From a virus: a DNA stretch of 23,560 bases. The notes below the pieces were generated by a model. That model was not told the DNA's origin. It saw nothing but the letters and a program-made list of their open reading frames with translations, and searched no databases. Position 1 is the stretch's first letter, and each line of letters opens with the position of its first letter. Made by a program: the position numbers and the translations under genes. Location: positions 1 to 23,560 of the IMG/VR virus record IMGVR_UViG_3300047299_000034. The stretch is one strand, 5' to 3'. This document shows positions 3-19,023 of this stretch, one piece after another.

Positions 3-962
3 GGTATTCAAGTTGGTGGCGTTGCGGCTGATGGTCCAGCAGAAGTTCCAGGCGAAATGCCAGGTGCAGAAGAGCCGGCAGTTATGTACGTTGGTGCAGA
101 ACCTACAGTGGCAGCAGACGATGTACCAGGCGATGTTGATGGCGATGGCGACCATGACATGGCTGATCACGAAGCAGAACAAGGCGGCGAATCTGAAGAG
201 GAAGAATCTGAAGAGGAAGATGATGTCGAAGAAGCAGTTGGCGATACATCATACACTTCTAAGGGTGGTAAAGTAACACAAACTGCAACTGGCTTAACAC
301 ACCAAGCAGGTTCTGGTGTATACGGCGGTACAGAAACTGATGACGAAGAAGAAGCTCGTAAAAAGGCCGATGATGAAGCGGCAAAGAAAGAAGTCGGTGA
401 GTCAGAAGAGCTAGACGAAGAAACAGCACGTATCCTTCAATTAGCTGGTGTTACAAACGAAGCACAAAGCGCCGCACAAAAAGCCGCATTTGCAAAAATG
501 ATTGCTAAGAAGAACGGCGACAAGCCAGCTGAAGATAAAGCCGACGACAAAGACGACAACAAGAAGCCAGATGCTGACGGTGACGGTGTACCAGACTGGG
601 CAGACAAAGACAAAGAAGTTAAGGAAGAAGCTCCTGCAACTAACTCTGTTTTTGGCCAAGGCGTATACGAAGGCGAAGCATACACAGACGAACTAGGTCG
701 CATTATGAAGCTATCTGGTTTTGCTGAAAGCAAACTAATGAACAGCCCAGAAGGCACTTCGATGAACGAGCCAACTGAGTTTGATTCTTTACCAAGTGGA
801 AAAGGCGACGCCGCCGGTAATAAAGCATACGGTGCAAACCGTGCTAACGGCCAAGGTGAAAACCCAATGGGTCTAGAAGAATCTACTGTAGAGCAGAAGT
901 TTCAAGACGCAATGGGCGAATACCGAAAGTTTGTTGCTGAGTCTATCAGCCGCAAGAAGTAA
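3..962 (+). CDS. Acidic phage protein with calcium-loop-like repeats (5' end outside window)
   Basis: The frame is open from the first bases of the window, so the true start lies upstream; the ATG at 57 is probably internal, because the residues before it have the same Ala/Gly/Pro/Glu-rich composition. The protein is very acidic and low in complexity, with Glu/Asp runs near nt 190-235. Two short loops of the form DxDGDGxxDxAD occur (nt 132-170 and 570-611), resembling dockerin or thrombospondin type 3 calcium loops. Two similar helical segments, E-T-A-R-I-L-Q-L-A-G (from about nt 411) and E-L-G-R-I-M-K-L-S-G (from about nt 681), look like an internal repeat. The stop lies 12 bases before the terminase ATG, so the two are probably co-transcribed. 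Its place beside the terminase suggests a head-related or structural role, but I do not recognise a family. It does not resemble T4 gp16, the usual terminase neighbour in T4. Confidence 0.7.
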   Translation, partial: GIQVGGVAADGPAEVPGEMPGAEEPAVMYVGAEPTVAADDVPGDVDGDGDHDMADHEAEQGGESEEEESEEEDDVEEAVGDTSYTSKGGKVTQTATGLTHQAGSGVYGGTETDDEEEARKKADDEAAKKEVGESEELDEETARILQLAGVTNEAQSAAQKAAFAKMIAKKNGDKPAEDKADDKDDNKKPDADGDGVPDWADKDKEVKEEAPATNSVFGQGVYEGEAYTDELGRIMKLSGFAESKLMNSPEGTSMNEPTEFDSLPSGKGDAAGNKAYGANRANGQGENPMGLEESTVEQKFQDAMGEYRKFVAESISRKK

Positions 963-974
963 TTAGGAAGCCGA

Positions 975-2525
975 ATGGCTGGCGAAAATACTTTTGTAAA
1001 GACTCCTTTTAAAGTAGAAAAGTTCACGGACGAACATGTCCGTGAACTTGCCATCTGTGCAACAGATCCTATTTACTTTATTGACAACTATTGCTGGGTG
1101 CAACACCCTACAAAAGGTAAAGTAAAATTTAAACTGTTTGATTATCAACGTGAACTAATTGATTGTTATCATAACAATCGTTACAGTATCAACATGCTTG
1201 GACGACAAATGGGTAAGACTGCATGTGCGGCAGCTTATCTTGTATGGCGTGCTATGTTCATGGCAGATCAAACTATTCTTATTGCCGCACACAAGTTTGC
1301 TGGTGCCCAAGAAATTATGCAACGTGTTCGTTACACATACGAAACACTTCCTGAATTTTTAAAGGCTGGCGCTACAAGTTACAACAAAGGTAGCATCGAC
1401 TTTGATAACGGTAGCCGTATTATCTCAACTACTACAACAGAAACAACTGCTCGTGGTATGTCATTGTCCCTAATTTATTGTGACGAGTTTGCATTCGTTA
1501 AGCCACGTATTGCAAGTGAGTTCTGGACTTCTATTTCACCTACACTGTCAACAGGTGGTAAGTGTATTATTACAAGTACTCCTAACCAAGACGATGACCA
1601 GTTTGCTCGTATCTGGAAGGATGCTACTAAGAACATTGACGACTATGGTAATACACAAAAGCTAGGCCGTAACGGCTTTGCAAGTATCAAGTTTATTTGG
1701 AGCGCACACCCAGATCGTGATGAAGCATGGGCAGCAACAGAACGTGTCAAGATTGGTGAAGAACGTTTCCTACGTGAACACGAATGCGAGTTCGTTATTG
1801 CTGACGAAACGCTAGTCAACTCAATGAAGTTGATTACAATGGAAAGCAAAGACCCAAATGGTAAGATGGGTCAAGTTCGCATTTACAAGTACCCACAACA
1901 GCAAAGCGCATACGTTATTGGATGGGATCCAAGTTTAGGTACAGGCGGAGACCCTGCGGCTATCCAAGTATTTAAACTACCCGAACTAGAACAAGTAGCA
2001 GAATGGCAACACAATAAAACTGATATCCAAGGACAGCTTCGTACTCTTGTTTCTATTTTAAAGTGGATGCAAGATGAAACTAAAGGTAACGTTGAGTTGT
2101 ATTGGTCAGTAGAAAACAACACCATCGGCGAAGCGGCCCTAATTAGTATTCGTGAATTTGGGGAAGAACACATCCCAGGTACGTTTGTGCAGGAAATTCG
2201 TCGTGCTGGCCAAAGCCGTGGACGTAGAGGTTTTAACACTACGCACAAGACTAAAATTACAGCGTGTATGCGTTTAAAGAACTACGTCGAAAGCGATAAG
2301 ATGACAATTTACAGTCATAACTTATTGCGCGAGCTAAAGAACTTTATTGCCCGTGGCGCCAGTTTTGCGGCAAAAGACGGGGAAACCGACGACTTGGTTA
2401 TGGCGACTATTTTAGTGTTACGTATGACCGAAGTTGTTATGACTTGGGATACTAGCACGTATGACAGGCTTGTAAATGCAGGCACAGATGAAGTATTAAG
2501 ACCAATGCCAATTGGCTTTCTATAA
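975..2525 (+). CDS. terL: Terminase large subunit (gp17-like packaging ATPase/nuclease)
   Basis: The motor that pumps DNA into the prohead and cuts the concatemer. The N-terminal ATPase has a Walker A variant GRQMGKT (residues 76-82), a Walker B segment LIYCDE (166-171, catalytic Glu171) and an STPN coupling motif (201-204). The C-terminal RNase H-like nuclease has its metal-binding acids in IGWDPS (Asp318), SVENN (Glu380) and ETDD (Asp472/Asp473). Its 516 residues are shorter than T4 gp17 (610) but both domains are complete. The start has a Shine-Dalgarno, AGGAAG at 965-970. It works with a portal and small terminase not seen in this window. Assignment is firm. Confidence 0.96.
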   Translation: MAGENTFVKTPFKVEKFTDEHVRELAICATDPIYFIDNYCWVQHPTKGKVKFKLFDYQRELIDCYHNNRYSINMLGRQMGKTACAAAYLVWRAMFMADQTILIAAHKFAGAQEIMQRVRYTYETLPEFLKAGATSYNKGSIDFDNGSRIISTTTTETTARGMSLSLIYCDEFAFVKPRIASEFWTSISPTLSTGGKCIITSTPNQDDDQFARIWKDATKNIDDYGNTQKLGRNGFASIKFIWSAHPDRDEAWAATERVKIGEERFLREHECEFVIADETLVNSMKLITMESKDPNGKMGQVRIYKYPQQQSAYVIGWDPSLGTGGDPAAIQVFKLPELEQVAEWQHNKTDIQGQLRTLVSILKWMQDETKGNVELYWSVENNTIGEAALISIREFGEEHIPGTFVQEIRRAGQSRGRRGFNTTHKTKITACMRLKNYVESDKMTIYSHNLLRELKNFIARGASFAAKDGETDDLVMATILVLRMTEVVMTWDTSTYDRLVNAGTDEVLRPMPIGFL

Positions 2526-2532
2526 CTAAATA
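2526..2532 (+). promoter_or_regulatory. Late-promoter-like motif CTAAATA
   Basis: CTAAATA lies just after the terminase stop and ends 5 nt before the ATG at 2538. It resembles the T4 late promoter TATAAATA, read by a gp55-type sigma factor. No Shine-Dalgarno lies between motif and ATG, so the transcript is predicted to start at or beside the start codon. Confidence 0.6.
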
Positions 2533-2537
2533 TAACT

Positions 2538-3404
2538 ATGCCTACAAGAGAACAACTAACCAAAGAACTAGCCGCTACAGTAGCAGGGGTAAGCCACAAT
2601 TCTACATTTAAAGATGTAGACGGTAAAGGTACTCTTGACCAAGAGCAAGCAGTATATCAATACGTACCAGATCAAAACATTATGGTCATGGTCAACTACG
2701 ACAACACTGACGTTGAAGTATGGTATGACCCAAGTACTACTGATGTAGAATGGTTTAAGAAAGAATTCAAACCACGTGTCCAAGCAGTTGCTAGACGTTA
2801 TTTGTACGGTACAACTATCCGTAGTTACGAAGGTGACATTGAACCAAAGAAAATGGCTCATCGTACCGAAACAGTTACAGAAGGCCGCAATAGTTTAAAG
2901 ATCAGCTACCATCCATTAGGTAGCACACAAATTCGTTTGGCTCACACCAAGTCAGTTACTGAAGAAAAGCCAGGCGCACGTAGCCGAAACATTCAAGCTC
3001 TATTTGTGGAAAAGGATGGCGAGCGTTTCCGTTTCCCATACAACCACTTATTAGGTGCTCGCGTTATGGCTTTACACGTAGAGTCTGGTGGCAAACCTTG
3101 GGACGAACTTGGTACCAAGATTGTTGAAATTTCCCGTCGTCGCAAGGACATTATGGAACTTCTACGTTGGAGCAAACGACTAGAAGAAACGGACCAAGTA
3201 AACAATATCCGCTCTCGTGGTAAAAGCGAAGTTATTATGCTAAAGCGTATGATGGAACGTGCCGCACGTACAGGTGACCTAAGTGGTATCACTGAATACC
3301 AACTACCAGCCAACAAACCAGGCCAAGCACCAATCAAACCTAACGACATGGTGTCTGAAGCAGTTGCTGACCTTGAAACATCCTTAAATCGCCTTTTCGG
3401 CTAA
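2538..3404 (+). CDS. Conserved phage protein of unknown function
   Basis: 288 residues, soluble and mixed alpha/beta, with no signal peptide or membrane segment. The first half is rich in beta-type segments with acidic and aromatic residues (VEVWYDPSTTDVEWF). The second half is basic, including ISRRRKDIMELLRWSKR near residues 197-213, and suggests a nucleic-acid or protein contact surface. I do not recognise a domain. It directly follows terL behind a late-type promoter and has no Shine-Dalgarno, so a late role in head assembly or packaging is plausible but inferred. The start is fixed by the promoter and the terL stop; no upstream in-frame alternative is better. Confidence 0.75.
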   Translation: MPTREQLTKELAATVAGVSHNSTFKDVDGKGTLDQEQAVYQYVPDQNIMVMVNYDNTDVEVWYDPSTTDVEWFKKEFKPRVQAVARRYLYGTTIRSYEGDIEPKKMAHRTETVTEGRNSLKISYHPLGSTQIRLAHTKSVTEEKPGARSRNIQALFVEKDGERFRFPYNHLLGARVMALHVESGGKPWDELGTKIVEISRRRKDIMELLRWSKRLEETDQVNNIRSRGKSEVIMLKRMMERAARTGDLSGITEYQLPANKPGQAPIKPNDMVSEAVADLETSLNRLFG

Positions 3405-3432
3405 TTTGTCCGAAATACGGCTAAAAAGCCTA

Positions 3433-3461
3433 TTGCTTTAATTTGCAGTCATAAGTATAAT
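3433..3461 (+). promoter_or_regulatory. Sigma70-type promoter for the gp32 gene
   Basis: TTGCTT at 3433-3438 and a perfect TATAAT at 3456-3461 are separated by 17 bp. Predicted transcription starts near 3468, giving a leader of about 80 nt before the gp32 ATG. The -10 is consensus and the -35 keeps TTG. Confidence 0.65.
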
Positions 3462-3494
3462 ACAACACATGCACAAGAAAAACGCATGTGTTGT
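3462..3494 (+). promoter_or_regulatory. 11-bp inverted repeat just downstream of the gp32 promoter
   Basis: ACAACACATGC (3462-3472) pairs perfectly with GCATGTGTTGT (3484-3494) across an 11-nt A-rich loop, and TTT follows. It could terminate late transcripts from 2538, act as an operator (it starts at the end of the -10), or form part of the gp32 leader. T4 gene 32 is controlled by a leader structure bound by gp32 itself. Which role applies cannot be told from sequence; the predicted start at about 3468 falls inside the left arm. Confidence 0.6.
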
Positions 3495-3549
3495 TTTAGT
3501 CCGCTATAGGGCTTAACACTCAAACTTAACTCATTAAAGGTAAAACATT

Positions 3550-4527
3550 ATGGCAACATTAGCAGAAATCCGCGCCCGACTAGCAGAGCAAGCACAAAAA
3601 TCCAGTGGCACTAAACAAGGTGGTGGAGACAATTCCATTTACGCACACTGGAACATCCCAGAAGGCACTTCGGCCTCACTTCGATTCCTCCCAGACGCAG
3701 ACGAAACAAACACATTCTTTTGGCGTGAACGTCAGATGATCAAGATCCCATTTGCTGGTGTCGCTGGTCAAGACGAAAACAAAAAAGTCTTTGTGCAAGT
3801 ACCTTGCGTTGAAATGTGGGGTGAAACATGTCCAGTACATGCCACTATCCGTCCATGGTTCAAAGATCCTAACATGGAAGCACTTGGCCGCACATACTGG
3901 AAGAAGCGTTCTTACGTTTTCCAAGGCTTCGTTGTAAACAGCCCAATGGAAGAAGACAGCGTTCCAGAAAATCCAATCCGTCGCTTTGTGATCTCTCCAC
4001 AAATCTTTACGCTTATCAAGCAAGCGTTGATGGATCCTGACATGGAAAATATTCCAACTGACTACCAAGCAGGTACAGACTTCCGCTTGAACAAGACACA
4101 AAAAGGTGGTTATGCTGACTACTCTACTTCTGGTTGGGCTCGTAAAGAGCGTGGCTTGAATGAAGAAGAATTGCAAGCAATTGCTACACACGGCTTGTTC
4201 AACTTGAACGACTTCATGCCAAAGCGTCCAGGCCTTGACGAACAAAGAGCAATCTTTGAAATGTTCGAAGCTTCCGTTGAAGGCAAGTTGTACGACCCAG
4301 AGCAGTGGGGCAAGTTCTATCGTCCAAGTGGCGTGCAAATTGCCAACGCACCAGCTGGTGAAGCAGATGAGGATACCCCAGCACCTAAGGCTACACCTGC
4401 TCCTGTAGCAAGCAAGCCAGCACCTGCTCCACAAGCAGCCGCTCCTGCTCCTGCCCCAGCAACCGAAGCTGGCGCAAAGCCAAGTGTCGACGACATCCTT
4501 AAGATGATTCGTAGCCGTCAAGCCTAA
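3550..4527 (+). CDS. 32: Single-stranded DNA-binding protein (gp32-like)
   Basis: Coats single-stranded DNA during replication and recombination and partners UvsX, the UvsY-like protein and the primase-helicase. The segment AHWNIPEGTSASLRFLPD (residues 32-49) matches the start of the gp32 OB core. A zinc-site candidate C86-x7-C94-x2-H97 occupies the place of the T4 Cys-Cys-Cys cluster, with His for the last Cys. The last 75 or so residues form a flexible Ala/Pro-rich linker ending in a short helix with acidic residues (VDDILKMIRSRQA), as expected for the protein-recruiting tail of such proteins. Length, 325, is close to T4 gp32 (301). A Shine-Dalgarno AAAGG at 3536-3540 supports the start, and a sigma70-type promoter and hairpin lie upstream. 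uvsX follows after 48 nt. Confidence 0.88.
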   Translation: MATLAEIRARLAEQAQKSSGTKQGGGDNSIYAHWNIPEGTSASLRFLPDADETNTFFWRERQMIKIPFAGVAGQDENKKVFVQVPCVEMWGETCPVHATIRPWFKDPNMEALGRTYWKKRSYVFQGFVVNSPMEEDSVPENPIRRFVISPQIFTLIKQALMDPDMENIPTDYQAGTDFRLNKTQKGGYADYSTSGWARKERGLNEEELQAIATHGLFNLNDFMPKRPGLDEQRAIFEMFEASVEGKLYDPEQWGKFYRPSGVQIANAPAGEADEDTPAPKATPAPVASKPAPAPQAAAPAPAPATEAGAKPSVDDILKMIRSRQA

Positions 4528-4536
4528 TTGACACAC

Positions 4537-4556
4537 GGGAGAGCACTAGCTCTCCC
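4537..4556 (+). terminator. Hairpin between gp32 and uvsX (weak terminator or mRNA processing site)
   Basis: GGGAGAGC and GCTCTCCC form an 8-bp GC-rich stem with an ACTA loop. The following TTCATCTT is only partly T-rich, so termination is probably partial, which would let gp32 be made in excess over UvsX. Confidence 0.5.
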
Positions 4557-4575
4557 TTCATCTTAAAGGAATATA

Positions 4576-5649
4576 ATGGCAAAAGCATTTGACGTATCAA
4601 AGTTTCGTAAGAGCATTACGAAATCAATTGAAGGCCTATCTATTGGCTTCAACGATCCAACTGACTGGATCTCAACTAACAACTACGCACTAAACTATCT
4701 TATCAGCGGTGACTTCAATCGAGGTGTACCAATGGGTAAGGTTACAGTTTTTGCTGGTGAATCAGGAGCAGGTAAGTCATTTATCTGTTCTGGCAATTTG
4801 GTCAAGAACGCACAAGAACAGGGCATTTATGTTATCTTGGTAGATACAGAAAACGCACTCGATGAAGCATGGTTACATGCTCTTGGCGTTGACACAAGTG
4901 AACAAAAGCTACTAAAGCTAAACATGGCAATGATCGATGACGTTGCTAAAATGATCACAGACTTTGTCAAGGAATACAAGGCCATTCCAGATACAGACCG
5001 TCCAAAGGTTCTGTTTGTAATCGACTCGTTGGGTATGTTGCTAACACCAACAGACGTTAACCAGTTCCAAGCAGGTGACTTAAAAGGTGACATGGGTCGT
5101 AAGCCCAAGGCACTTGCGGCATTGGTTCGTAACTGTGTTAACATGTTTGGCGACTTGAACATTGGTATGGTTGTAACCAACCACACTTATGCGTCACAGG
5201 ACATGTTTGATCCAGACGACAAAATCTCCGGTGGTCAAGGCTTTATCTACGCTTCTTCTATTGTTGTTGCTATGCGTAAGCTGAAGCTAAAAGAGGATGA
5301 AGACGGCAACAAGATTTCAGAAGTTAAAGGTATTCGTGCCGCATGTAAAATCATGAAGACACGTTATGCCAAGCCTTTTGAATCAGTCCAAGTTAAGATT
5401 CCTTACGAAACAGGTATGAATCCTTACTCTGGTTTAACAGACTTGATCGAAGGCAAAGGTATGTTGAAGAAGGAAGGCAATAGCTTGCTTTACACAACAG
5501 CCGATGGTGAGATTATCAAGAAGTTCCGCAAGGGATGGGAACGCAACGATGACGGATGTTTGGATCGTGTAATGGCTGACATTACTGCTAACCCACACAT
5601 CTTTGACAAGAGTGTTCCTGCAGAAGCTCCCGAAGTAGTCGAGGAATAA
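4576..5649 (+). CDS. uvsX: UvsX RecA-like recombinase
   Basis: ATP-dependent strand-exchange protein that drives recombination-dependent replication and repair. Walker A is GESGAGKS (residues 61-68); Walker B ends at Asp150 in VLFVIDS; the RecA-type DNA-binding loop region follows around GQGFIYASSIVVAMRK (about 217-232). The acidic end (EAPEVVEE) is typical of recombinases that use a C-terminal regulatory tail. 357 residues against 391 for T4 UvsX. Shine-Dalgarno AAAGGA at 4565-4570 fixes the start. It sits between gp32 and genes leading to the uvsY-like gene, the expected functional neighbours. Confidence 0.95.
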   Translation: MAKAFDVSKFRKSITKSIEGLSIGFNDPTDWISTNNYALNYLISGDFNRGVPMGKVTVFAGESGAGKSFICSGNLVKNAQEQGIYVILVDTENALDEAWLHALGVDTSEQKLLKLNMAMIDDVAKMITDFVKEYKAIPDTDRPKVLFVIDSLGMLLTPTDVNQFQAGDLKGDMGRKPKALAALVRNCVNMFGDLNIGMVVTNHTYASQDMFDPDDKISGGQGFIYASSIVVAMRKLKLKEDEDGNKISEVKGIRAACKIMKTRYAKPFESVQVKIPYETGMNPYSGLTDLIEGKGMLKKEGNSLLYTTADGEIIKKFRKGWERNDDGCLDRVMADITANPHIFDKSVPAEAPEVVEE

Positions 5650-7909: not shown

Positions 7910-8971
7910 ATGTCAGCATACATTACTATCGCAAAAGGTACGTATCGTAACTTTAACGTTGTTAATCAAACGTTCAAGCTCGTGTCAGATTATAAAGAAG
8001 GCTCTAAAGGTGGGTACGTCACTGTAGTCGCAGATGAGTCCTTTGAACCCCTTATTAAGGCAGGCCGCGAAGTTCGCATTAAAGTAGAATCTATGCGTGA
8101 CGTTATCCCGTCAACTGCCGCAGATTGTGCAACCAGTGTTGAGGGCAACTTTGACGCCCCCAAACGTAAGGAACCCAAAGTGCAAGAAACAGACGAACAA
8201 GCCATTGAACGTATCCGCGAGCGTTTTGACATTCTCGAGGAAATGACTGAAGGCGCTGTCGATGGCTCAGTTCGTGCTATGATTGTTGTTGGCCCTCCTG
8301 GCGTTGGTAAGAGCTTTGGTGTTGAGAAGGTGCTTGACAAGAGCGCCATGTTTGACAAGATTGGTGGCAACCGCCCACGTTACGAAATTGTCAAAGGTGC
8401 AATGAGCGCCATCGGACTGTACTGCAAGCTCTACAATTACAGCGATGCAGGTAACGTGCTCGTGTTTGACGACTGTGACTCTGTGTTGCTTGACGAGTTG
8501 TCACTTAACATTCTGAAAGCCGCTCTGGACAGTTCCAAGAAGCGTACTATTTGCTGGAACACTGATAGCCGTATGTTGCGTCAAGAAGGTGTACCGGATC
8601 GCTTCGAGTTCAAAGGCTCTGCTATCTTTATCACTAACATCAAGTTTGAGCACGTTAAGAGTGCTAAGTTGAAGGACCACTTGGGTGCATTGGAGAGTCG
8701 CTGTCACTATTTGGACCTCACGCTCGACACCGCCCGTGACAAGATGCTTCGTATCAAGCAAATTATGATGGACGGTATGCTGGACCACTACGAGTTCGAA
8801 GAAGGTGCCAAGCAAGAACTGTACGAGTACGTTGATACTAACAAAGATCGTTTGCGCGAACTGAGCCTGCGTACTGTTATCAAGATTGCAGACTTGAAGA
8901 AGATGTGTGGCGAAGGCTCTGACAAGTGGAAGCGTCTTGCAGAAACTACGGTTATGAAGCGCGGCGAGTAA
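7910..8971 (+). CDS. AAA+ ATPase of phage type
   Basis: 353 residues. Walker A GPPGVGKS (residues 128-135), Walker B VLVFDDCD (183-190), a sensor-1-like Asn243 in AIFITNIKF, and a candidate arginine finger at Arg264 in LESRCHYLDL give a complete single AAA+ module in the middle and C-terminal half. The first 120 residues form a separate domain: beta-type segments to about residue 65, then a linker rich in Lys, Glu and Pro. It is not a convincing gp44 clamp loader, since it lacks an evident clamp-loader collar. The partner or substrate is unknown. It has its own promoter and heads the group AAA+ / HNH / RNA ligase, so a role in DNA or RNA remodelling is inferred. Confidence 0.82.
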   Translation: MSAYITIAKGTYRNFNVVNQTFKLVSDYKEGSKGGYVTVVADESFEPLIKAGREVRIKVESMRDVIPSTAADCATSVEGNFDAPKRKEPKVQETDEQAIERIRERFDILEEMTEGAVDGSVRAMIVVGPPGVGKSFGVEKVLDKSAMFDKIGGNRPRYEIVKGAMSAIGLYCKLYNYSDAGNVLVFDDCDSVLLDELSLNILKAALDSSKKRTICWNTDSRMLRQEGVPDRFEFKGSAIFITNIKFEHVKSAKLKDHLGALESRCHYLDLTLDTARDKMLRIKQIMMDGMLDHYEFEEGAKQELYEYVDTNKDRLRELSLRTVIKIADLKKMCGEGSDKWKRLAETTVMKRGE

Positions 8972-9365: not shown

Positions 9366-10424
9366 ATGCGTAAGATGGCAACCATTAGAAAGATTGATTC
9401 GCTAAGACCTATTGAAGGTGCAGATGCAATCGAGTGCGCCGTTGTAGGTGGTTGGACAGTAGTTACCAAGAAGGGTGAATACAACGTAGGCGACCTTGCA
9501 GTGTATTGCGAAATTGATTCGTTCATTCCTACTGCTATTGCTCCGTTCCTAACCAAGCCCGGCCACTATGCAAAGACTTTTGAAGGAGTCGAAGGCGAAC
9601 GTTTGCGTACAATGAAGTTGCGCGGCCAACTGTCACAAGGCCTGTTGCTACCGTTTACTGCTAAGATGGCAATTGATATTGGTGCAGGACCCGGGGCAAA
9701 GTTTACTGACTACGAAGGTACAGATGTTTCGGAAGTACTTGGTATTGTCAAGTACGAAGCACCGGTGCCTGCAGAGCTTGCTGGTGAAGTTAAAGGTATG
9801 TTTCCGTCAGTTATTCCCAAGACTGATCAAGAGCGTATTCAAAACTTAAAGGTCGAACTTGCTGAATGGCTGAACAATGATGAACTGCATTGGGAAGTTA
9901 CCGAAAAGCTAGAAGGCTCGTCAATGACAGTGTACATGCGTGATGGTGAAGTAGGTGTGTGTTCGCGTAACCTTGACCTTAAGCCTAACGCAGATAACTC
10001 ACTATGGCGTGCCGCAAACAAGTACAACCTGCCTGCTAAGTTGATTGGCATCGGTCGTAACATTGCTATCCAAGGTGAAATTGTAGGCAACGGCATTCAA
10101 GGCAACATTTACCAAATGCGTGATCAAGATTTCCTTGTGTACGACATTTACGATATTGATGCTGGTCGTTACTTTACACCAGGCGAGCGTAAGGCATTTG
10201 TTGCAGAGCATGGACTTAACCACTGCCCCGTACTTGCATATTCGGCTCGGCTAACTGACACACTTGGTCTTACCAACATGGATCAAATCTTAAAGTTTGC
10301 CGAAGGCAAGTCAGTTATGGGCATGATCGGATGCGAACGTGAAGGTGTAGTTTTCAAGTGCCACGAAAAGGCAGTTTCGTTCAAGGCAATTTCTAACAAG
10401 TATCTCCTAAAGCACGGAGGTTAA
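9366..10424 (+). CDS. RNA ligase with N-terminal OB domain (Rnl5/DraRnl-like)
   Basis: Seals nicks in RNA by an ATP-dependent lysyl-AMP mechanism. All nucleotidyltransferase motifs are visible: motif I EKLEGSS (nucleophile Lys181), SRNLDL (200-205), IQGEIVG with Glu238 (motif III), FLVYDIYD (256-263), REGVVFK with Glu326 (motif IV) and VSFKAISNKYL with Lys340 (motif V). Residues 1-150 form an N-terminal OB-type domain; this order, OB before the catalytic domain, is that of Deinococcus DraRnl (Rnl5), unlike T4 Rnl1 or Rnl2. Shine-Dalgarno AAGGA at 9355-9359 supports the start. A strong terminator follows. Probable role: repair of RNA cut by host defence nucleases; the RNA substrate is unknown. 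Confidence 0.88.
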   Translation: MRKMATIRKIDSLRPIEGADAIECAVVGGWTVVTKKGEYNVGDLAVYCEIDSFIPTAIAPFLTKPGHYAKTFEGVEGERLRTMKLRGQLSQGLLLPFTAKMAIDIGAGPGAKFTDYEGTDVSEVLGIVKYEAPVPAELAGEVKGMFPSVIPKTDQERIQNLKVELAEWLNNDELHWEVTEKLEGSSMTVYMRDGEVGVCSRNLDLKPNADNSLWRAANKYNLPAKLIGIGRNIAIQGEIVGNGIQGNIYQMRDQDFLVYDIYDIDAGRYFTPGERKAFVAEHGLNHCPVLAYSARLTDTLGLTNMDQILKFAEGKSVMGMIGCEREGVVFKCHEKAVSFKAISNKYLLKHGG

Positions 10425-10595: not shown

Positions 10596-12053
10596 ATGCC
10601 TGGAATAACACGATTAGAAATTAAAGACGAAGTCAATATCAAGTTCCATGATCTTGATCCAAGTACTCGTCGCAAATGCGAAACCAAATTAAAGTATATG
10701 CTACCCCATGCATATCACGTACCTGCTTTTCGATTAGGAAGGTGGGACGGCAAGATTGGTTTCTTTACAACAGCCGGAGCCACTTATCTAAACTTGCTAG
10801 ATAGAGTGCTACCTATCCTTGATGAGGAAGGCTGGCAAATTGAAATTGATGACAAGCGTCCTAACTGGAACATCAAGTTTACTGAAGTTACCGAAGACAC
10901 GTTTAGTCACATACTTTGGCCTAAAGGACACCCTGCAGAGGGTCAACCTATTAAGATTCGTGACTACCAAGTAGCTTGTATTAATCGCTATCTTGCTAAC
11001 CCACAAGGTGTACAAGAAATTGCTACAGGCGCAGGTAAGACACTAATGACTGCGGCACTGAGTTTAACATGCGAGCCGTTTGGTCGCACACTTGTCATTG
11101 TACCAAACAAGGACTTGGTACGCCAAACACATGCTGACTATGTTAACATGGGATTAGATGTTGGTGTGTACTTTGGTGACGAGAAAGACCTTGGGCATAC
11201 ACATACTATTGCAACATGGCAAAGTATTAACAGCCTTATTAAGAAGAACAAAGAAGGCACAAGTGCAATTGGTATTGAAGCAGTCACTGACGATCTAATT
11301 GCAGTTATTGTTGACGAAGTTCACATGGCAAAAGCAGATGTGTTGCGTACCTTGCTAACAAGCACATTTGCACACATACCAATTCGTTGGGGACTAACTG
11401 GTACTGTTCCCAAAGAAGAACATGAATATGTTAGCCTTATCGCATCATTGGGCGAAGTACTACACAGGCTACCTGCAAGCGAACTACAAGACATGGGTGT
11501 GTTATCCAACTGCCACGTTAAGGTACTACAGTTTGATGACAAGGTAGAGTACAAAACATACCAAGAAGAATTGACGTACCTAACGTCAAATGAAAAGCGA
11601 TTAGATCACCTGGCCAAAACACTTGAAACGATCAGTTTAGCCGGCAATACGCTTATTCTTGTTGATCGTATTGCTACTGGCAAGATGCTAGTAGAAAGAT
11701 TACCCGACAGTGTATTTGTATCGGGTGCAATGAAATCAAAGGATAGAAAAGATGAGTACGACGAAATCACTACAAGCGATAACAAAATTATCGTTGCGAC
11801 ATATGGTGTCGCGGCTGTTGGTATTAATATTCCTCGCATCTTCAACTTGGTACTTGTTGAGCCTGGGAAGTCGTTTGTCCGAGTTATTCAAAGTATTGGC
11901 CGCGGGATAAGAAAAGCACAAGACAAAGACTTTGTGCAAATTTGGGACGTTACTTCAACGGCTAAGTTTGCCAAACGTCACCTCACTACGAGGAAGAAAT
12001 TTTATACCGAAGCAAATTATCCATACCAAACAGAAAAGGTTACTTACAAATGA
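10596..12053 (+). CDS. uvsW: UvsW-like superfamily 2 helicase
   Basis: ATP-dependent helicase that in T4 unwinds R-loops and branched DNA and turns off origin-dependent initiation late in infection. The first 110 residues match the small N-terminal domain region, with FRLGRWDGKIGFF at about residues 45-57. Then come Q-motif-like IRDYQ (121-125), Walker A ATGAGKT (143-149), DEVH (240-243), TGT (268-270) and motif VI QSIGRGIRK (432-440). 485 residues, near T4 UvsW (503 in the full form). It starts 5 nt after a TATAAT box, and the next gene overlaps its stop (ATGA). Confidence 0.92.
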   Translation: MPGITRLEIKDEVNIKFHDLDPSTRRKCETKLKYMLPHAYHVPAFRLGRWDGKIGFFTTAGATYLNLLDRVLPILDEEGWQIEIDDKRPNWNIKFTEVTEDTFSHILWPKGHPAEGQPIKIRDYQVACINRYLANPQGVQEIATGAGKTLMTAALSLTCEPFGRTLVIVPNKDLVRQTHADYVNMGLDVGVYFGDEKDLGHTHTIATWQSINSLIKKNKEGTSAIGIEAVTDDLIAVIVDEVHMAKADVLRTLLTSTFAHIPIRWGLTGTVPKEEHEYVSLIASLGEVLHRLPASELQDMGVLSNCHVKVLQFDDKVEYKTYQEELTYLTSNEKRLDHLAKTLETISLAGNTLILVDRIATGKMLVERLPDSVFVSGAMKSKDRKDEYDEITTSDNKIIVATYGVAAVGINIPRIFNLVLVEPGKSFVRVIQSIGRGIRKAQDKDFVQIWDVTSTAKFAKRHLTTRKKFYTEANYPYQTEKVTYK

Positions 12054-12565: not shown

Positions 12566-13057
12566 ATGGCTACTAAAAAGAAAGCTCCTGCTACTGCAAA
12601 ATATCAACTGCCAATTGACCAAGTAATGGCGGCAGTAGACCTACGTAAAGGTGATTACTACAGTAAGTTAGATGATGAAGGGCTTAAAGCGTTAAGCACC
12701 TATATGGCACAACGTTGGGGTAGCCAAGTGCAAGGCACACAGGACCTGCAAGAGTACTATTTGACAACAGTCAACGACTTGTCTAACTTAGATTACATTG
12801 CAGTAGGTAGTGCTCATGATGAACTACGTTGGCGCACTCTTGCATTATGTGGCATTGGCCACAAGATGCGACATGAGTTCATTCCGCCTAAGGGTGCCAA
12901 GAAAGATAAGCTAACAGCATGGCTAATTGAACAGTTCCCTTCAATGGATGATGAGGAGATTGAACTGTTCCGTACCCTTAACGGTAATGATGTGTTAGAG
13001 GATATAGCAGTTGCCAAAAACATGGGTAATAAAGATCTTAAGGATTTGTTTAAATAA
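12566..13057 (+). CDS. Conserved phage protein, possibly clamp-loader small subunit (gp62-like)
   Basis: 163 residues: a Lys/Ala-rich N-terminal tail, then helical segments including YYSKLDDEGLKALSTYMAQR (about 31-50) and an acidic C-terminal part (FPSMDDEEIELFRTLNGND). Length and all-helical character fit the phage clamp-loader A subunit (T4 gp62, 187 residues), which pairs with gp44 to load the sliding clamp. I recall distant likeness to phage clamp-loader A proteins, but no residue is diagnostic, so the function is tentative. It lies between uvsW and other replication genes. The next gene starts at its last base (TAATG overlap). No ribosome binding site is seen. Confidence 0.5.
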   Translation: MATKKKAPATAKYQLPIDQVMAAVDLRKGDYYSKLDDEGLKALSTYMAQRWGSQVQGTQDLQEYYLTTVNDLSNLDYIAVGSAHDELRWRTLALCGIGHKMRHEFIPPKGAKKDKLTAWLIEQFPSMDDEEIELFRTLNGNDVLEDIAVAKNMGNKDLKDLFK

Positions 13058-13566
13058 TGGTACAGGATTACCAATGTCGCTTCTGCGGAAAGGCATTTAC
13101 ACGTGAGCGCACCTTAAGTAGCCACATGTGTGAACGCAAACGCAGATGGATGAATAAGGATGAACCTGAAAGTCGTATTGCTTTTAGCGTATGGTTGGAT
13201 TTTATGAAATATGTAAGTCCTAATACAAAGAAAGAAAAGACAATCGACGATTTCATAAGGAGCGCAGACTATATTGGATTTGTAAAATTTGCTAACTACT
13301 TGATTGAGTTACGTCCTTTAGAAAGCAATAAGTTTACAAACTGGCTTTTTAAAATGAGCGTTCGATTAAGTGATTGGACAAAGCCAGGAACTTACCAACT
13401 ATATGTACAAGAAGCGGCAAAGAAGGAAACTTCAGAACGTGCATTAGAACGCACTATCCTAGCAATGGTTGACTGGGGAGAGCGTACAAACAATAGATGG
13501 CAAGATTTTTTTAACAAAGTTGCACCGGCTACAGCAATGAATATGATAACTATGGGACGGTATTAG
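13057..13566 (+). CDS. Zinc-finger phage protein, apparently truncated by a +1 frameshift
   Basis: The reading frame gives 169 residues. The N-terminus carries a compact zinc-finger-like motif, YQCRFCGKAFTRERTLSSH followed by M-C, with C7, C10, H23 and C25 as ligands, then a basic stretch (ERKRRW). The rest is helical with charged and aromatic residues. The frame ends at TAG 13564-13566, but the next frame continues with coding-like sequence (from 13562) that reads as the expected C-terminal part of this family. A joined product would have about 230 residues. The finger suggests nucleic-acid or protein binding. Overlaps the preceding gene by one base. Confidence 0.75.
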   Translation: MVQDYQCRFCGKAFTRERTLSSHMCERKRRWMNKDEPESRIAFSVWLDFMKYVSPNTKKEKTIDDFIRSADYIGFVKFANYLIELRPLESNKFTNWLFKMSVRLSDWTKPGTYQLYVQEAAKKETSERALERTILAMVDWGERTNNRWQDFFNKVAPATAMNMITMGRY

Positions 13567-13750
13567 TCCTTGGATCATTTACTCAGCAGAAGCCGCACAG
13601 CAGTTGTTAGATAGAATGGAACCAGGACAAATTGATACAATTACCAAGCATGTGGATACTAAATGGTGGATAAACAAAATAAAACAAAACGAAAGTCAGG
13701 CATTGTGGATCAACACACTAATGACGCAGGCACTCGCTACGCAAAATTAG
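13562..13750 (+). pseudogene. Out-of-frame C-terminal part of the zinc-finger gene
   Basis: In the +1 frame, skipping T13561 after codon CGG (13558-13560), 62 codons run to a TAG at 13748-13750. They encode ISPWIIYSAEAAQQLLDRME and then a Trp/Lys-rich tail (KWWINKIKQNESQALW). Joined to the preceding frame this gives MGR-ISPWIIY, matching the G-(K/R)-I-S-P-W segment I recall near the end of zinc-finger proteins in other T4-like phages. There is no usable ATG at its start (first ATG at 13616). It could be a real mutation, an assembly error, or programmed frameshifting; no classical slippery site is evident. Confidence 0.6.
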
Positions 13751-13866
13751 AAGCACGACTTGAAATTGTTTTAGCGCGACTTAACGAAATGACACAAGAA
13801 GTACTTGCTATCAAACAACAACAAGAAGATTTAATAAACATCGTTAAAACAACATTTAAGAAATAA
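13663..13866 (+). CDS. Small coiled-coil phage protein
   Basis: 67 residues: a basic N-terminal third (KQNKTKRKSG) followed by a regular heptad helix from about residue 25 to 60 (RYAKLEARLEIVLARLNEM). No enzymatic motif is visible. Its stop overlaps the ATG of the next gene (TAATG), supporting the frame. Its start overlaps the frameshifted tail of the zinc-finger gene by 88 nt, which is unusual for this tightly packed genome and may indicate that the start lies downstream (GTG at 13705) or that the overlap is real. Function unknown; the coiled coil suggests oligomerisation. Confidence 0.65.
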   Translation: MVDKQNKTKRKSGIVDQHTNDAGTRYAKLEARLEIVLARLNEMTQEVLAIKQQQEDLINIVKTTFKK

Positions 13867-14444
13867 TGAACTTACCTGACGTAGACATTGACTTTGCAGA
13901 TCGTGAACAAGTATTAAAACTACTAGACCACGTTCCTGCAATGCAACGTATGCCAAACGGCAATAGACAAAAGCATAAGACTGGGGTATACTTCCATCCT
14001 GTACCTACCAACCCCTTTACAGGATGGTGTGATCTTGATTACCAGCAAGCAGAAGAATTGGGATTCTTTAAAGTAGACTTATTGAACGTGAGTTTATATC
14101 AGGGCGTTAAAAGTAAAGAGCACTTAGACCAACTAGCCAACCAGGAGCCATTATGGGATCTGCTACAACAAGACGACTTTGTAAATCTGTTATTTCATTT
14201 AAACGGGCATGGGGATGTTCTGAAGAAGACTTGCCCTACTTCCGTGGAACAATTAGCTGCCGTCCTTGCGATGATTCGCCCAGCCAAACGTTATCTGATT
14301 GGGAAATCATGGAATATGATTCTGAAGGAAGTGTGGACGAAGCCAGAGAATGGTGAGTACTACTTTAAAAAGGCTCATGCAGTTGCCTACGCAGTTGCCA
14401 TCGTTGCACAAATGAATTTAATATGCGAGCAACTTGGGTCATAA
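13866..14444 (+). CDS. Miniature DnaE-like protein (polymerase III alpha active-site motifs)
   Basis: Only 192 residues, but it carries in order several signature segments of bacterial DNA polymerase III alpha: PDVDIDF (residues 4-10, the Asp triplet of the palm), FFKVDLLNVSLY (67-78, matching the KFDFLGL segment with the third catalytic Asp, here Asp71), LFHLNGHGDVLK (109-120, like the VFQLES-GM-LI segment), an A-x-L-A-M-I-R-P run (132-139, like the ALxRPG segment) and FKKAHAVAYA (167-176, like FNKSHSAAYA). The PHP domain, thumb and most of the fingers, about 900 residues in DnaE, are absent. The metal-binding acids appear intact. It may be a small nucleotidyl-transfer or regulatory protein of the replisome; polymerase activity is doubtful. 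Similar proteins occur as hypotheticals in aquatic T4-like phages, from memory. Confidence 0.75.
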   Translation: MNLPDVDIDFADREQVLKLLDHVPAMQRMPNGNRQKHKTGVYFHPVPTNPFTGWCDLDYQQAEELGFFKVDLLNVSLYQGVKSKEHLDQLANQEPLWDLLQQDDFVNLLFHLNGHGDVLKKTCPTSVEQLAAVLAMIRPAKRYLIGKSWNMILKEVWTKPENGEYYFKKAHAVAYAVAIVAQMNLICEQLGS

Positions 14445-14462: not shown

Positions 14463-15320
14463 ATGAGCACTGAAATTAATCAAGCAACATACACTGCACA
14501 AAATGTCGAGCGCAAAGAAGGTGGCGTCATTGTTGAAACCAAAGAAAATTTAACAGAACTACGAAATCACGAGTTAAGTAAACTTCCTGAAGTTAAAACT
14601 CTTTATACTGAGCTCGAAAAAACATACGGCAAATATCTGTTCGTACCATACGATATCCCAAAGATACAGATACACGATTTGCAAAAGTTTGTTGTTTTCT
14701 TTTTCCAGAATGGAAAGCATGCTGGTAAGCAAGTTGAAGATTTGAGTTCAGGTACATTTAATGCAACAAAATCTACTTACTTGTCAATTGACAGCAATGT
14801 AAATTCCTGGACTCCCGTCTGGACACGAAACATTGTAGAATCTATTTACACAGAGTTTCCTGAAATATTTGAGCAAATTCACGATCTGATGCCCTGGATT
14901 GGGCAAAAAAACTTTCGATGGAACATGTGGTCAAGCGCAAATAGAGTCCCGGCACATCGAGATCACACAAGCATGATAGATATGCCATTGGCAATGCGTA
15001 TAAAATTGTTTGACTCTAATATATCAGAAACTCTAAGTCTACTCACTGATCCTATTAAACAACACAGCAATGGATATGTGCCCTTACCAAAATTAGAGGA
15101 CACAAATTCCTATGCATGGAACAATCTAAGAACAAAACATGCAAGTACTTGGAAACCGACAGCTAGAAAAATTTTGTTTATATGGCGGGATAAACTTACA
15201 ACACCGCAACAAGTGAATCAATACGTTGACTTGCTTGACAGAAGTATTGCGAAATATCAAGGCACAGATAAACTTTGGATTGATAGCAACCCGGCTACAG
15301 ATTACATTAATATAGATTAA
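14463..15320 (+). CDS. Probable non-haem iron / 2-oxoglutarate dioxygenase-like protein
   Basis: 285 residues. H165-R-D167 in VPAHRDHTSM, a following R-I-K-L-F-D strand, then N-S-Y-A-W-N-N-L-R-T-K-H226 and Arg235 (TARKILFIW) give the His-x-Asp ... His iron site and the basic residue that binds 2-oxoglutarate. Spacing of about 60 residues between HxD and the distal His is normal for the family. The first 100 residues form a separate, partly charged N-terminal region. Phage proteins of this type are thought to hydroxylate proteins or nucleotides; the substrate here is unknown. It is preceded by a late motif at 5 nt spacing and no ribosome binding site, and appears more AT-rich than its neighbours. 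Confidence 0.6.
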   Translation: MSTEINQATYTAQNVERKEGGVIVETKENLTELRNHELSKLPEVKTLYTELEKTYGKYLFVPYDIPKIQIHDLQKFVVFFFQNGKHAGKQVEDLSSGTFNATKSTYLSIDSNVNSWTPVWTRNIVESIYTEFPEIFEQIHDLMPWIGQKNFRWNMWSSANRVPAHRDHTSMIDMPLAMRIKLFDSNISETLSLLTDPIKQHSNGYVPLPKLEDTNSYAWNNLRTKHASTWKPTARKILFIWRDKLTTPQQVNQYVDLLDRSIAKYQGTDKLWIDSNPATDYINID

Positions 15321-15694
15321 CGCATTTTACGCACCAAACTGATTTGACGTCGTTTGGTACGTTTTGTTATAACATTAGCCAAGCTGGTTTGGTGACCGTA
15401 TAGTACTTCAAAATCCTTGGTGCTATAAGTTTTTAATGCGTATGTAAATTGGCGCATAGGTTCTTTTAGCACAATGTTGATAGGAATTAAACGGTTAGAA
15501 CCCCACCACCATTCTTCCCCTTGTTCAATGAAAGCAACTTTATCAGCATCATCCTTTAGTAGGTTGTAGACATACATGGTGACAACTACATTATCACTGT
15601 TTTGTATAATACCAACTAACTCGTTCTCTCCGTACCGCACTAAGCTCATAAACGGGAAACGTTCTAGAAATTCTTTAACTTTGCTGTCCATCAT
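15317..15694 (-). CDS. Conserved phage protein of unknown function
   Basis: 125 residues on the minus strand, one of only two minus genes. The N-terminus is a short helix (KVKEFLERFPFMSLVRYG) followed by strands, with a WWWGSNRLIPIN segment in the middle and a strongly basic end (ITKRTKRRQISLVRKMR). The basic tail suggests nucleic-acid binding. It converges on and overlaps the preceding plus gene by 4 bases, and its start faces the virion-type gene at 15743, with a late-type motif in both directions between them. The start may be the first or second of two adjacent ATGs. Confidence 0.75.
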   Translation of the reverse strand: MMDSKVKEFLERFPFMSLVRYGENELVGIIQNSDNVVVTMYVYNLLKDDADKVAFIEQGEEWWWGSNRLIPINIVLKEPMRQFTYALKTYSTKDFEVLYGHQTSLANVITKRTKRRQISLVRKMR

Positions 15695-16551: not shown

Positions 16552-17520
16552 ATGAGCATAGTTGAATCTACATTACAAGCCCACCTACCTGCGTTAAAGC
16601 GCAACACCAACGGCTGGTTAACTATGAACTGCCCAGTGTGCGTCCAAAACGGACAAGCACGTCCAGATACTAAACATCGCGGTGGCATTAAGTTTGAAGA
16701 AGACCGCGTAGGCTATCATTGCTTTAACTGCGGCTACACAACAGGCTGGAGACCGGGACAACGGCTTGGCATTAAGCTGATCAAGTTTATGCGAGCTATT
16801 GGCATTGACGAAGGTGAAATTCAACGCCTCAAGATCCAACTGTGGGATCAAGTAGTTGATGACGATGAAAACACAGTCCACGAACCTTTCAAAAAGCCCG
16901 ATTGGCCCGAGATCGAGTTCCCGTGGGAAATACAAGACATAACATTAGAAGCAGCCGAGTACTTAGACAGTAGAAAAGTACTTGAACTAACTGATTGGTT
17001 GTCTAGTCCCAGTAGCATACAAGGCATGAACAATCGTGCTATCCTACCTTTTTTTGATGAGGGTAAGTTAGTAGGCTACAATGCACGTTGGATTGGCGAA
17101 GTACCCAAAGGCACTGCAAAGATTATTGCAAGTCGTCCTGCTAGCTTTGTGTTTAACTTAGATAAACAAAGCCAGGCAAGAAAATATACACTAGTAGTTG
17201 AAGGCGAGTATGATGCACTAAGTTTAGATGGTGTTGCTATTATGACTAACAGCATTAGTCCTGAACAAGCAAAGATTATCGAAGACATTGATAACGAACC
17301 AGTGGTGTTACCGGACAGAGATCGGGCTGGCCTACAATTGGCAATGCAAGCGGCAGAGCTAGGTTGGAGCGTGAGCTTTCCAGACTGGCCAGACGGCATT
17401 AAAGATGCTAATGATGCAGTACAACACTTTGGGCGAGTTGCTACACTACAAAGCGTGATATCGGCGATTGAGACCTCCCCTTTGAAGATTAAATTAATAG
17501 CACGCCGTTGGTGTGCGTAA
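16552..17520 (+). CDS. 61: DNA primase (gp61-like, DnaG type)
   Basis: Makes RNA primers for lagging-strand synthesis. The N-terminal zinc finger has C27-x2-C30 and C57-x2-C60, with YHCFNCGYTTGW typical of primase zinc ribbons. The Toprim domain shows VVEGEYDALSL (Glu217) and LPDRDRAG (Asp255, Asp257), followed by a DGIKDANDAV loop (281-290). 322 residues, close to T4 gp61 (342). It lies 15 nt before the helicase gene, its functional partner. The start has no clear Shine-Dalgarno, and no late motif is seen; the 11-nt gap after the virion-type gene suggests read-through expression. Confidence 0.9.
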   Translation: MSIVESTLQAHLPALKRNTNGWLTMNCPVCVQNGQARPDTKHRGGIKFEEDRVGYHCFNCGYTTGWRPGQRLGIKLIKFMRAIGIDEGEIQRLKIQLWDQVVDDDENTVHEPFKKPDWPEIEFPWEIQDITLEAAEYLDSRKVLELTDWLSSPSSIQGMNNRAILPFFDEGKLVGYNARWIGEVPKGTAKIIASRPASFVFNLDKQSQARKYTLVVEGEYDALSLDGVAIMTNSISPEQAKIIEDIDNEPVVLPDRDRAGLQLAMQAAELGWSVSFPDWPDGIKDANDAVQHFGRVATLQSVISAIETSPLKIKLIARRWCA

Positions 17521-17535
17521 AGGAAAACTATAATA

Positions 17536-19023
17536 ATGGCAGATGATGTAAAAGAATACGGCTATGAGTTACAAAAACTATTTTTGGACTTCTTAGTCAG
17601 CAACAGGGACTTGGCAGCACGTTGCCAAAACGTACTAGATCCCGATCACTTTGACCGCAGGTTGCGAGGTGCGGCAGAATTTATTAAGGCTTATGTAAAT
17701 GAACATGGAAACATTCCAGACATTACACAAGTAAAAGCAACAACAAACACAGAGCTTTCGCATTTAGAAACACAAGCAGTTGAACATAGCAGTTGGTTCC
17801 TGGCAGAGTTTGAAGGCTTTGCAAGACATAAAGCATTAGAGAAGGCTATCCTTCAAAGTGCTGACATGTTAGACAAGAGTCAGTATGGTGCAGTTGAAAA
17901 GCTAATCAAAGATGCAGTACAAGTTGGCTTGCCAAAGACATTTGGTACAGACTACTTTGCTGATCCGAGTGGTCGTCTAAATGCACTAAAGAATAATAAC
18001 GGACAGTTAACGACAGGTTGGAAGGCACTTGACGATAAGTTGTACGGTGGGTTTAACAGAGGTGAGCTAAACATCTTTGCCGGAGCGTCGGGTGCAGGTA
18101 AGAGTTTGTTCTTGCAAAACTTAGCACTAAACTGGTCAATGGCTGGATTGAATACTGTTTACTTTTCACTAGAACTTTCAGAAGGCTTGTGTGCTATGCG
18201 TATGGACGCTATGCTAACAGACACGCCCACTCGAGAAGTGTTTAAGCGACTTGAGGATGTTGATCTTAAAGTTCGTATGAATGGTAAGAAAGCTGGCGTA
18301 CTACAAATCGTACAGTTGACTAACGGCATTACTGCAAACGATATCTTGTCTTGGGTGCGTGAATTCCAAACACAGCGCAAGATTAAAGTAGATGCAATTT
18401 TAGTTGACTACTTAGACTTGATGATGCCAGCAAGTCAAAAGATTAGTGTTAGCGACATGTTCGTTAAGGACAAGTTGGTAGCAGAAGAATTGCGTAACTT
18501 GGTTGTTAGTGAACAGCTATTGTTGGCAACAGCTTCGCAGTTGAACCGTTCTGCGGTTGAAAGTGTAGAGTTTGACCATTCTATGATTGCTGGTGGTTTG
18601 TCTAAGATTCAAACTGCTGATAACGTATTTGGTATCTTCTCTACTCCTACAATGCGTGAACGTTGTATGGTACAGTTGCAGTTTATGAAGACACGTTCTT
18701 CTGGTGCAGTTGGACAAAAGATTGACCTAAGTTTCAATCCAGATACTTTGCGTATCAGTGATCAAGATGGTGATCAAAGCAGTGGCACTACTAAACCTGG
18801 CGATGTCTATGACAAGCTAAAACGTAATACAATGGGAACACCAATTGATACTAGTACTGCAAGTTCTCTGCGATCTACAAGTTGGGAAAAGCCACAGGCT
18901 AAAGAAGGGTTTGATTTAGAAAAACCAGATTCTGGCATACCCAAGGCAAAGCCCTTAACTGCACCGGTTGTTAGTAATTCTAACAGAGATGCACTAAGGG
19001 CTATTGTTAGCCGTGAAATTTAA
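17536..19023 (+). CDS. 41: Replicative DNA helicase (gp41-like, DnaB family)
   Basis: Hexameric 5'-3' helicase that unwinds the fork and stimulates primase. Residues 1-130 are a helical N-terminal domain. The RecA-type motor has Walker A GASGAGKS (183-190), the H1a segment TVYFSLELSEG (207-217), Walker B ILVDYLDL (288-295) and TASQLNR (332-338). The C-terminal 80 residues are a disordered Ser/Pro/Lys-rich tail. Length, 495, against 475 for T4 gp41. Shine-Dalgarno AAAGGAAA starts at 17519. The end abuts, tail to tail, the minus gene at 19024. Confidence 0.95.
   Translation: MADDVKEYGYELQKLFLDFLVSNRDLAARCQNVLDPDHFDRRLRGAAEFIKAYVNEHGNIPDITQVKATTNTELSHLETQAVEHSSWFLAEFEGFARHKALEKAILQSADMLDKSQYGAVEKLIKDAVQVGLPKTFGTDYFADPSGRLNALKNNNGQLTTGWKALDDKLYGGFNRGELNIFAGASGAGKSLFLQNLALNWSMAGLNTVYFSLELSEGLCAMRMDAMLTDTPTREVFKRLEDVDLKVRMNGKKAGVLQIVQLTNGITANDILSWVREFQTQRKIKVDAILVDYLDLMMPASQKISVSDMFVKDKLVAEELRNLVVSEQLLLATASQLNRSAVESVEFDHSMIAGGLSKIQTADNVFGIFSTPTMRERCMVQLQFMKTRSSGAVGQKIDLSFNPDTLRISDQDGDQSSGTTKPGDVYDKLKRNTMGTPIDTSTASSLRSTSWEKPQAKEGFDLEKPDSGIPKAKPLTAPVVSNSNRDALRAIVSREI

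Follow-up and report, generated by a model that had tools for sequence, protein, structure and literature searches.

What can a protein of 192 residues do with the active-site motifs of the alpha subunit of bacterial DNA polymerase III (Pol III alpha, or DnaE) when most of that enzyme is missing? The question is raised by an open reading frame (ORF) at 13866-14444 on the plus strand of a 23,560-nucleotide virus fragment, IMG/VR record IMGVR_UViG_3300047299_000034, the whole of which is referred to here as the window. The initial annotation read the protein as a stand-alone miniature of a C-family polymerase core. This was not borne out, as the chain comprises no more of the palm than its C-terminal half, with a reduced fingers module, while a separate gene in related phages encodes an N-terminal half with the GS motif. 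We are highly confident that the 192-residue protein is one half (termed C-half) of a split C-family enzyme, and the best explanation overall, which we consider likely, is that it constitutes the C-terminal half of a two-gene, phage-specific minimal Pol III alpha-type polymerase.

The motifs quoted in the initial annotation are all present in the ORF, on the plus strand. PDVDIDF occupies residues 4-10 and includes the metal-binding motif DVDID (residues 5-9; 13878..13892), equivalent to D401/D403 of E. coli DnaE. KHKTG (residues 36-40; 13971..13985) corresponds, in a by-eye reading against E. coli, to KHAGG, the DnaE palm segment located after the thumb; in the C-half the thumb ahead of this segment is missing. 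FFKVDLLN (residues 67-74) contains KVD (residues 69-71; 14070..14078), whose Asp is the third catalytic residue, E. coli D555, and which is aligned to the KMD of PDB entry 5lew. LFHLNGHGDVLK is found at residues 109-120 and AMIRP at residues 135-139, overlapping RPAK (residues 138-141; 14277..14288), the equivalent by profile alignment and conservation of the fingers motif RPGP of DnaE. The same evidence equates FKKAH (residues 167-171; 14364..14378), within FKKAHAVAYA (residues 167-176), with the DnaE fingers motif FNKSH. The PHP domain and thumb are lost, as are the C-terminal domains and most of the index finger. A further loss was overlooked earlier: the chain begins at the DxD strand and lacks the preceding, N-terminal half of the palm, which bears the GS motif. 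As judged from the sequence and the profile alignment, the stretch between DxD and KHxxG, the place of the thumb, is reduced to ∼26 residues and that between RP and FKK, the place of the index finger, to ∼25-27 residues.

Descent from DnaE is supported by profile searches and by structure prediction. PHROG 11778, annotated 'DNA polymerase', matches the C-half over its full length (residues 5-189, E=1.6e-64) and phrog_405, the DnaE-type family, matches residues 55-140 (E=4e-7), and the resemblance is therefore not due to chance. This relationship would be missed by a Pfam search alone, in which PF07733 was not found and PF17657 scored only 11.4 bits (E=0.21), below the cut-off of 22. A profile built from 42 C-half homologues and searched against solved structures reaches Pol III alpha chains with a best E of 1.3e-4; apart from a single weak, unrelated match, ranked last (E=0.14), all hits are Pol III alpha. 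In the family profile, residues 3-9 align with E. coli MPDFDVDF from position 399 onwards, D5/D7 pairing with D401/D403, residues 58-141 align with M. tuberculosis DnaE1 568-664, where KMDFLG provides the Asp paired with D71, and residues 155-178 align with positions 743-767, the region of FNKSH. All three catalytic Asp residues are thus kept, as had been proposed. The AlphaFold2 model of the C-half is confident (predicted local distance difference test score, pLDDT, 91.7; predicted template modelling score 0.79), and when it is compared with PDB folds, each of the first 13 matches is a Pol III alpha or PolC-type polymerase or carries the bare title 'DNA polymerase'.

The missing part of the palm was found in the relatives. 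A second short ORF, matched by PF07733/phrog_405 and referred to here as the N-half, is present in eight cultured phages, RaK2, 121Q, Paride, Phosso, Atu_ph07, SCTP-2, Vibrio 2.275.O and Slicko01, and in a 285-kb contig. These carriers represent 9 of the 11 relatives searched, the other two records being contig fragments, and their N-half ORFs encode 169-181 residues. For the N-half, every PDB profile match is to Pol III alpha and the AlphaFold2 model has a pLDDT of 90.5; the 17 highest-ranking PDB folds belong to Pol III alpha, to PolC-type enzymes or to entries with no title beyond 'DNA polymerase'. The N-half profile aligns to E. coli DnaE 321-392 and the alignment of the C-half starts at 399; therefore, the two proteins abut without overlap. 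Indeed, of 102 N-half matches that were scored, 84 terminate exactly 33 residues past the G of GRGS, the Phosso protein ending in GVGRGSSVASYVLFLIGIHRVNSITYELDFDEFLN, and by our own reading of the sequence this end point is where FLN precedes PDFDVDF in E. coli DnaE. In WGxGRGSSxxS, none of the specified residues (W, G, G, R, G, S, S and S) varies among 65 N-half sequences. A naturally fused version was also sought and rejected, no single ORF with both halves being detected among 105 N-half and 131 C-half ORFs.

The two genes also co-occur. The 285-kb contig, whose C-half is 80% identical to that of the window, carries the N-half 199 kb away, and the C-half is present in 17 of 21 contigs which carry an N-half or a RaK2-type C-half. 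The two largest contigs with an N-half but no C-half (543 and 359 kb) were rejected as exceptions, as UvsW and the helicase are absent there too and the whole segment is missing. Cultured phages yielded the C-half in 90 records and N-half matches in 101, a total to which some Bacillus phages with an annotated DNA polymerase III alpha subunit contribute, and the C-half/N-half counts per genus are nearly equal, for example 34/34 in Escherichia and 11/11 in Pseudomonas.

Conservation of the key C-half residues extends across very divergent phages. D5, D7, D9, K69, D71, R138, P139, K141, F167, K168 and H171 are invariant in the 42 diverse homologues, which range down to 36% identity, as are H37 and G40 of KHKTG. 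Homologues from phages of other hosts retain the active-site residues down to ∼35-40% identity, and a family member is encoded by the 141-kb phage Alishewanella Slicko01, a genome below the usual jumbo size range. The ratio of nonsynonymous to synonymous substitution rates (dN/dS) for the C-half gene is 0.026-0.076 in comparisons with 15 relatives; the gene is under strong purifying selection. Length is nearly constant at 189-216 residues, save for a few ORFs that are cut by a contig edge or belong to larger DnaE proteins, and the family extends from the cultured phages to hundreds of contigs. A scan of bacterial and archaeal genomes returned five matches, four of which lie in metagenome-assembled genomes (L239-L242), among them a supposed archaeon and a member of the Rickettsiales. 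In L239 and L240 the same phage gene cassette is present, and they are probably mis-binned phage contigs. The fifth match, in Alkalicoccus luteus, is weak and partial.

Enzymes of the Pol-beta fold, Pol III alpha among them, bind the triphosphate with a GS loop and two metals with three acidic residues. The N-half has the GS loop and the C-half the metal-binding acids and shortened fingers, and one active site formed from two polypeptides is therefore the most economical reading. In the proposed mechanism, the N-half, ∼170-180 residues encoded elsewhere in the genome, would supply the GS motif GxGRGSS for the triphosphate of the incoming nucleotide, while the C-half would supply DxDxD and KVD for the two metals and, in its shortened fingers module, R-P-x-K and FK-x-x-H, predicted to bind template. 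Together the halves would rebuild a whole palm with reduced fingers, ∼360 residues lacking PHP, thumb, OB and clamp-binding domains. The C-half is probably catalytically active when joined by its N-half partner. We infer that the two halves associate, polymerise as a complex and work beside a family-B enzyme in gap filling, repair or synthesis of one strand; a complex poor in thumb and fingers would presumably be poorly processive, which would suit such an auxiliary job. That the enzyme is specifically an auxiliary or repair polymerase is a tentative assignment, somewhat short of an even chance. The fuller proposal, that the halves assemble in trans into an active, thumbless C-family polymerase of ∼360 residues beside a family-B replicase, possibly the smallest of its family and perhaps with the C2H2 and coiled-coil neighbours as DNA-binding subunits, is in our estimation evenly balanced.

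Several observations weigh against a shared active site in a split polymerase. The fold matches of the C-half are modest (TM-scores of 0.32-0.41 with large root-mean-square deviations), as might be expected for a half-protein, and are not proof of a working active site. A polymerase without a thumb is unusual, and another nucleotidyl-transfer reaction is possible. Finally, the N-half was not found in the 23.5-kb window, itself a fragment; its presence in this phage, outside the fragment, is suggested by the relatives.

The family-B enzyme invoked above was found in 10 of the 11 related records, including all nine with both halves. A family-A polymerase was found in none of the 11, and was rejected as the main replicase on this basis. 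None of the window ORFs was noticed to encode a family-B polymerase, although no family-B profile search of the window was made. In two relatives the family-B matches occur as two open frames, Slicko01 (W07) at 3529-5033 and Paride (W03) at 88906-92683. A split intein in the family-B polymerase has been reported for MIJ3, a close PA5oct relative belonging to the same phage group as Paride (PMC6892783).

The presence of a full family-B polymerase in related genomes, the absence of thumb and PHP and the position of the gene within a primase-helicase cassette would also accommodate a catalytically dead subunit, a palm-like scaffold or regulator that does not polymerise but holds the family-B polymerase, primase-helicase or clamp loader in position. 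A scaffold would, however, be expected to lose the metal-binding Asp residues, the GS serines and the Lys, Arg and His residues of the fingers, all of which are invariant in very divergent phages, and we regard this explanation as unlikely. Invariance of the three Asp residues and the fingers motifs is equally what would be seen if the 192-residue protein catalysed nucleotide transfer alone, as a miniature polymerase or terminal transferase. Against this, the C-half has no GS loop, and a Pol-beta-type active site would not be expected to hold a triphosphate without one; the stand-alone enzyme is highly improbable and was rejected, as another gene in the relatives encodes the part of the palm with the GS motif. 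The initial annotation also considered a decoy acting on host Pol III or its clamp. Such a decoy or inhibitor would mimic the palm to capture the clamp, tau or epsilon. Phages do encode replication inhibitors, and the protein does resemble host DnaE. DnaE contacts epsilon through its PHP domain and beta and tau through its C-terminal region, however, and it is precisely these domains that are missing. In addition, the catalytic residues are kept even though homologues from other-host phages are only ∼35-40% identical, the N-half partner gene is conserved, and the C-half is retained in the phage's own replication cassette; a decoy thus has very little to recommend it. A pseudogene or decaying piece of a full dnaE, suggested by the short length and by the description of the 172-residue alpha-like protein of CBB as apparently truncated (PMC5259590), has a negligible probability and was rejected by the dN/dS values of 0.03-0.08, as well as the near-constant length and retention in 90 phage records and hundreds of contigs.

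The split polymerase, our preferred reading, is not the novel enzyme that the initial annotation had considered. Iyer et al. 2021 (Viruses 13:63, PMC7824862) described, computationally, a 'phage-specific minimal' split DNA polymerase III alpha in group 2.2 jumbo phages, and assembly of the two units into an active enzyme is a prediction there too. The window protein belongs to this kind, and literature searches covering work after 2021 found no experimental study of the split pair. Earlier genome papers had noted isolated components, a truncated alpha of 172 residues in CBB (PMC5259590) and alpha and epsilon in Atu_ph07 (PMC6102473). As in the Iyer system (PHROG 11778 for its Mg2+- and template-binding C-terminal unit), an NTP-binding N-unit and a metal- and template-binding C-unit are encoded by distant genes in the relatives, in which a family-B polymerase co-occurs; the window protein differs in coming from an uncultured phage fragment with its partner outside the fragment. 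Bacterial DnaE (PDB 2hnh, 2hpi, 5lew) shares the PDxDxDF, KxD, RP and FxKSH motifs, the order of palm and fingers and the best fold match. In contrast, DnaE is ∼1160 residues in length and carries in one chain the PHP, thumb, most of the index finger and C-terminal (OB/tau-binding) domains that the 192-residue C-half lacks, whereas in the phage system even the palm is split over two genes. Phage DnaE-type polymerases (phrog_405; for example the Bacillus phage G type, Iyer group 3.2) have homologous palm and fingers segments but are mostly full-length or nearly so, while the window protein is of half length and its relatives also encode a family-B polymerase.

The window adds one more uncultured lineage and leaves the published picture unchanged. 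What is added to that picture is the residue-level complementarity of the halves, the invariance of both half-sites, the selection data, conservation of the cassette and the occurrence in a 141-kb phage. Should the pair prove active, it would nearly set the minimum protein content of C-family catalysis and would show a replicative-type polymerase in an accessory role beside a family-B enzyme, with replication parts of bacterial and of archaeo-eukaryotic type combined. Iyer et al. argued from the split enzyme for an ancestral, modular Pol III (PMC7824862), an idea that biochemistry on the split pair would help make testable.

A different split, of larger phage DnaE proteins, was observed at loci L206 (L206-L208 at 471-4464) and L212. 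ORF 1 extends through the third catalytic Asp (534 residues in L206; in L212 it is truncated at the end of the locus) and is followed by a DnaQ-like exonuclease ORF (226-227 residues) and then by ORF 2 (507-783 residues), from the fingers onwards, which in L212 seems to hold an intein. L209-L211 are fragments of similar size, compared by size only.

The C-half gene lies in a cassette conserved across 121 loci, consisting of UvsW, a C2H2 protein, the C-half gene, primase and helicase. As locus lengths are limited, the neighbour counts over these loci are lower bounds. At the left edge is a UvsW-like helicase (10596..12053, plus strand), near the C-half in at least 83 of 121 loci. It is followed on the same strand by a 163-residue protein of phrog_11758 (unknown function; 12566..13057; 91/121) and a 169-residue C2H2-like zinc-finger protein of phrog_11058 (unknown function; 13057..13566; 117/121), which may be a partner subunit of the mini polymerase. 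Immediately upstream, a 67-residue protein (phrog_18012, E=0.003) is encoded at 13663..13866 on the plus strand; its stop overlaps the ATG of the C-half (TAATG) and the two genes are therefore probably translationally coupled. Downstream, the cassette is interrupted by a gene on the minus strand for a 125-residue protein of phrog_11637 (15317..15694), present in 112 of 121 loci, and continues on the plus strand with a T4 gp61-like primase (16552..17520; 102/121) and a DnaB-like, T4 gp41-like replicative helicase (17536..19023; 84/121). In the lineage of the window, an extra gene for 285 residues (14463-15320), matched in only nine loci, is located between the C-half and the phrog_11637 gene. 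The same replication region of the window encodes an RNA ligase (phrog_968) at 9366-10424 and an AAA ATPase (phrog_1250) at 7910-8971.
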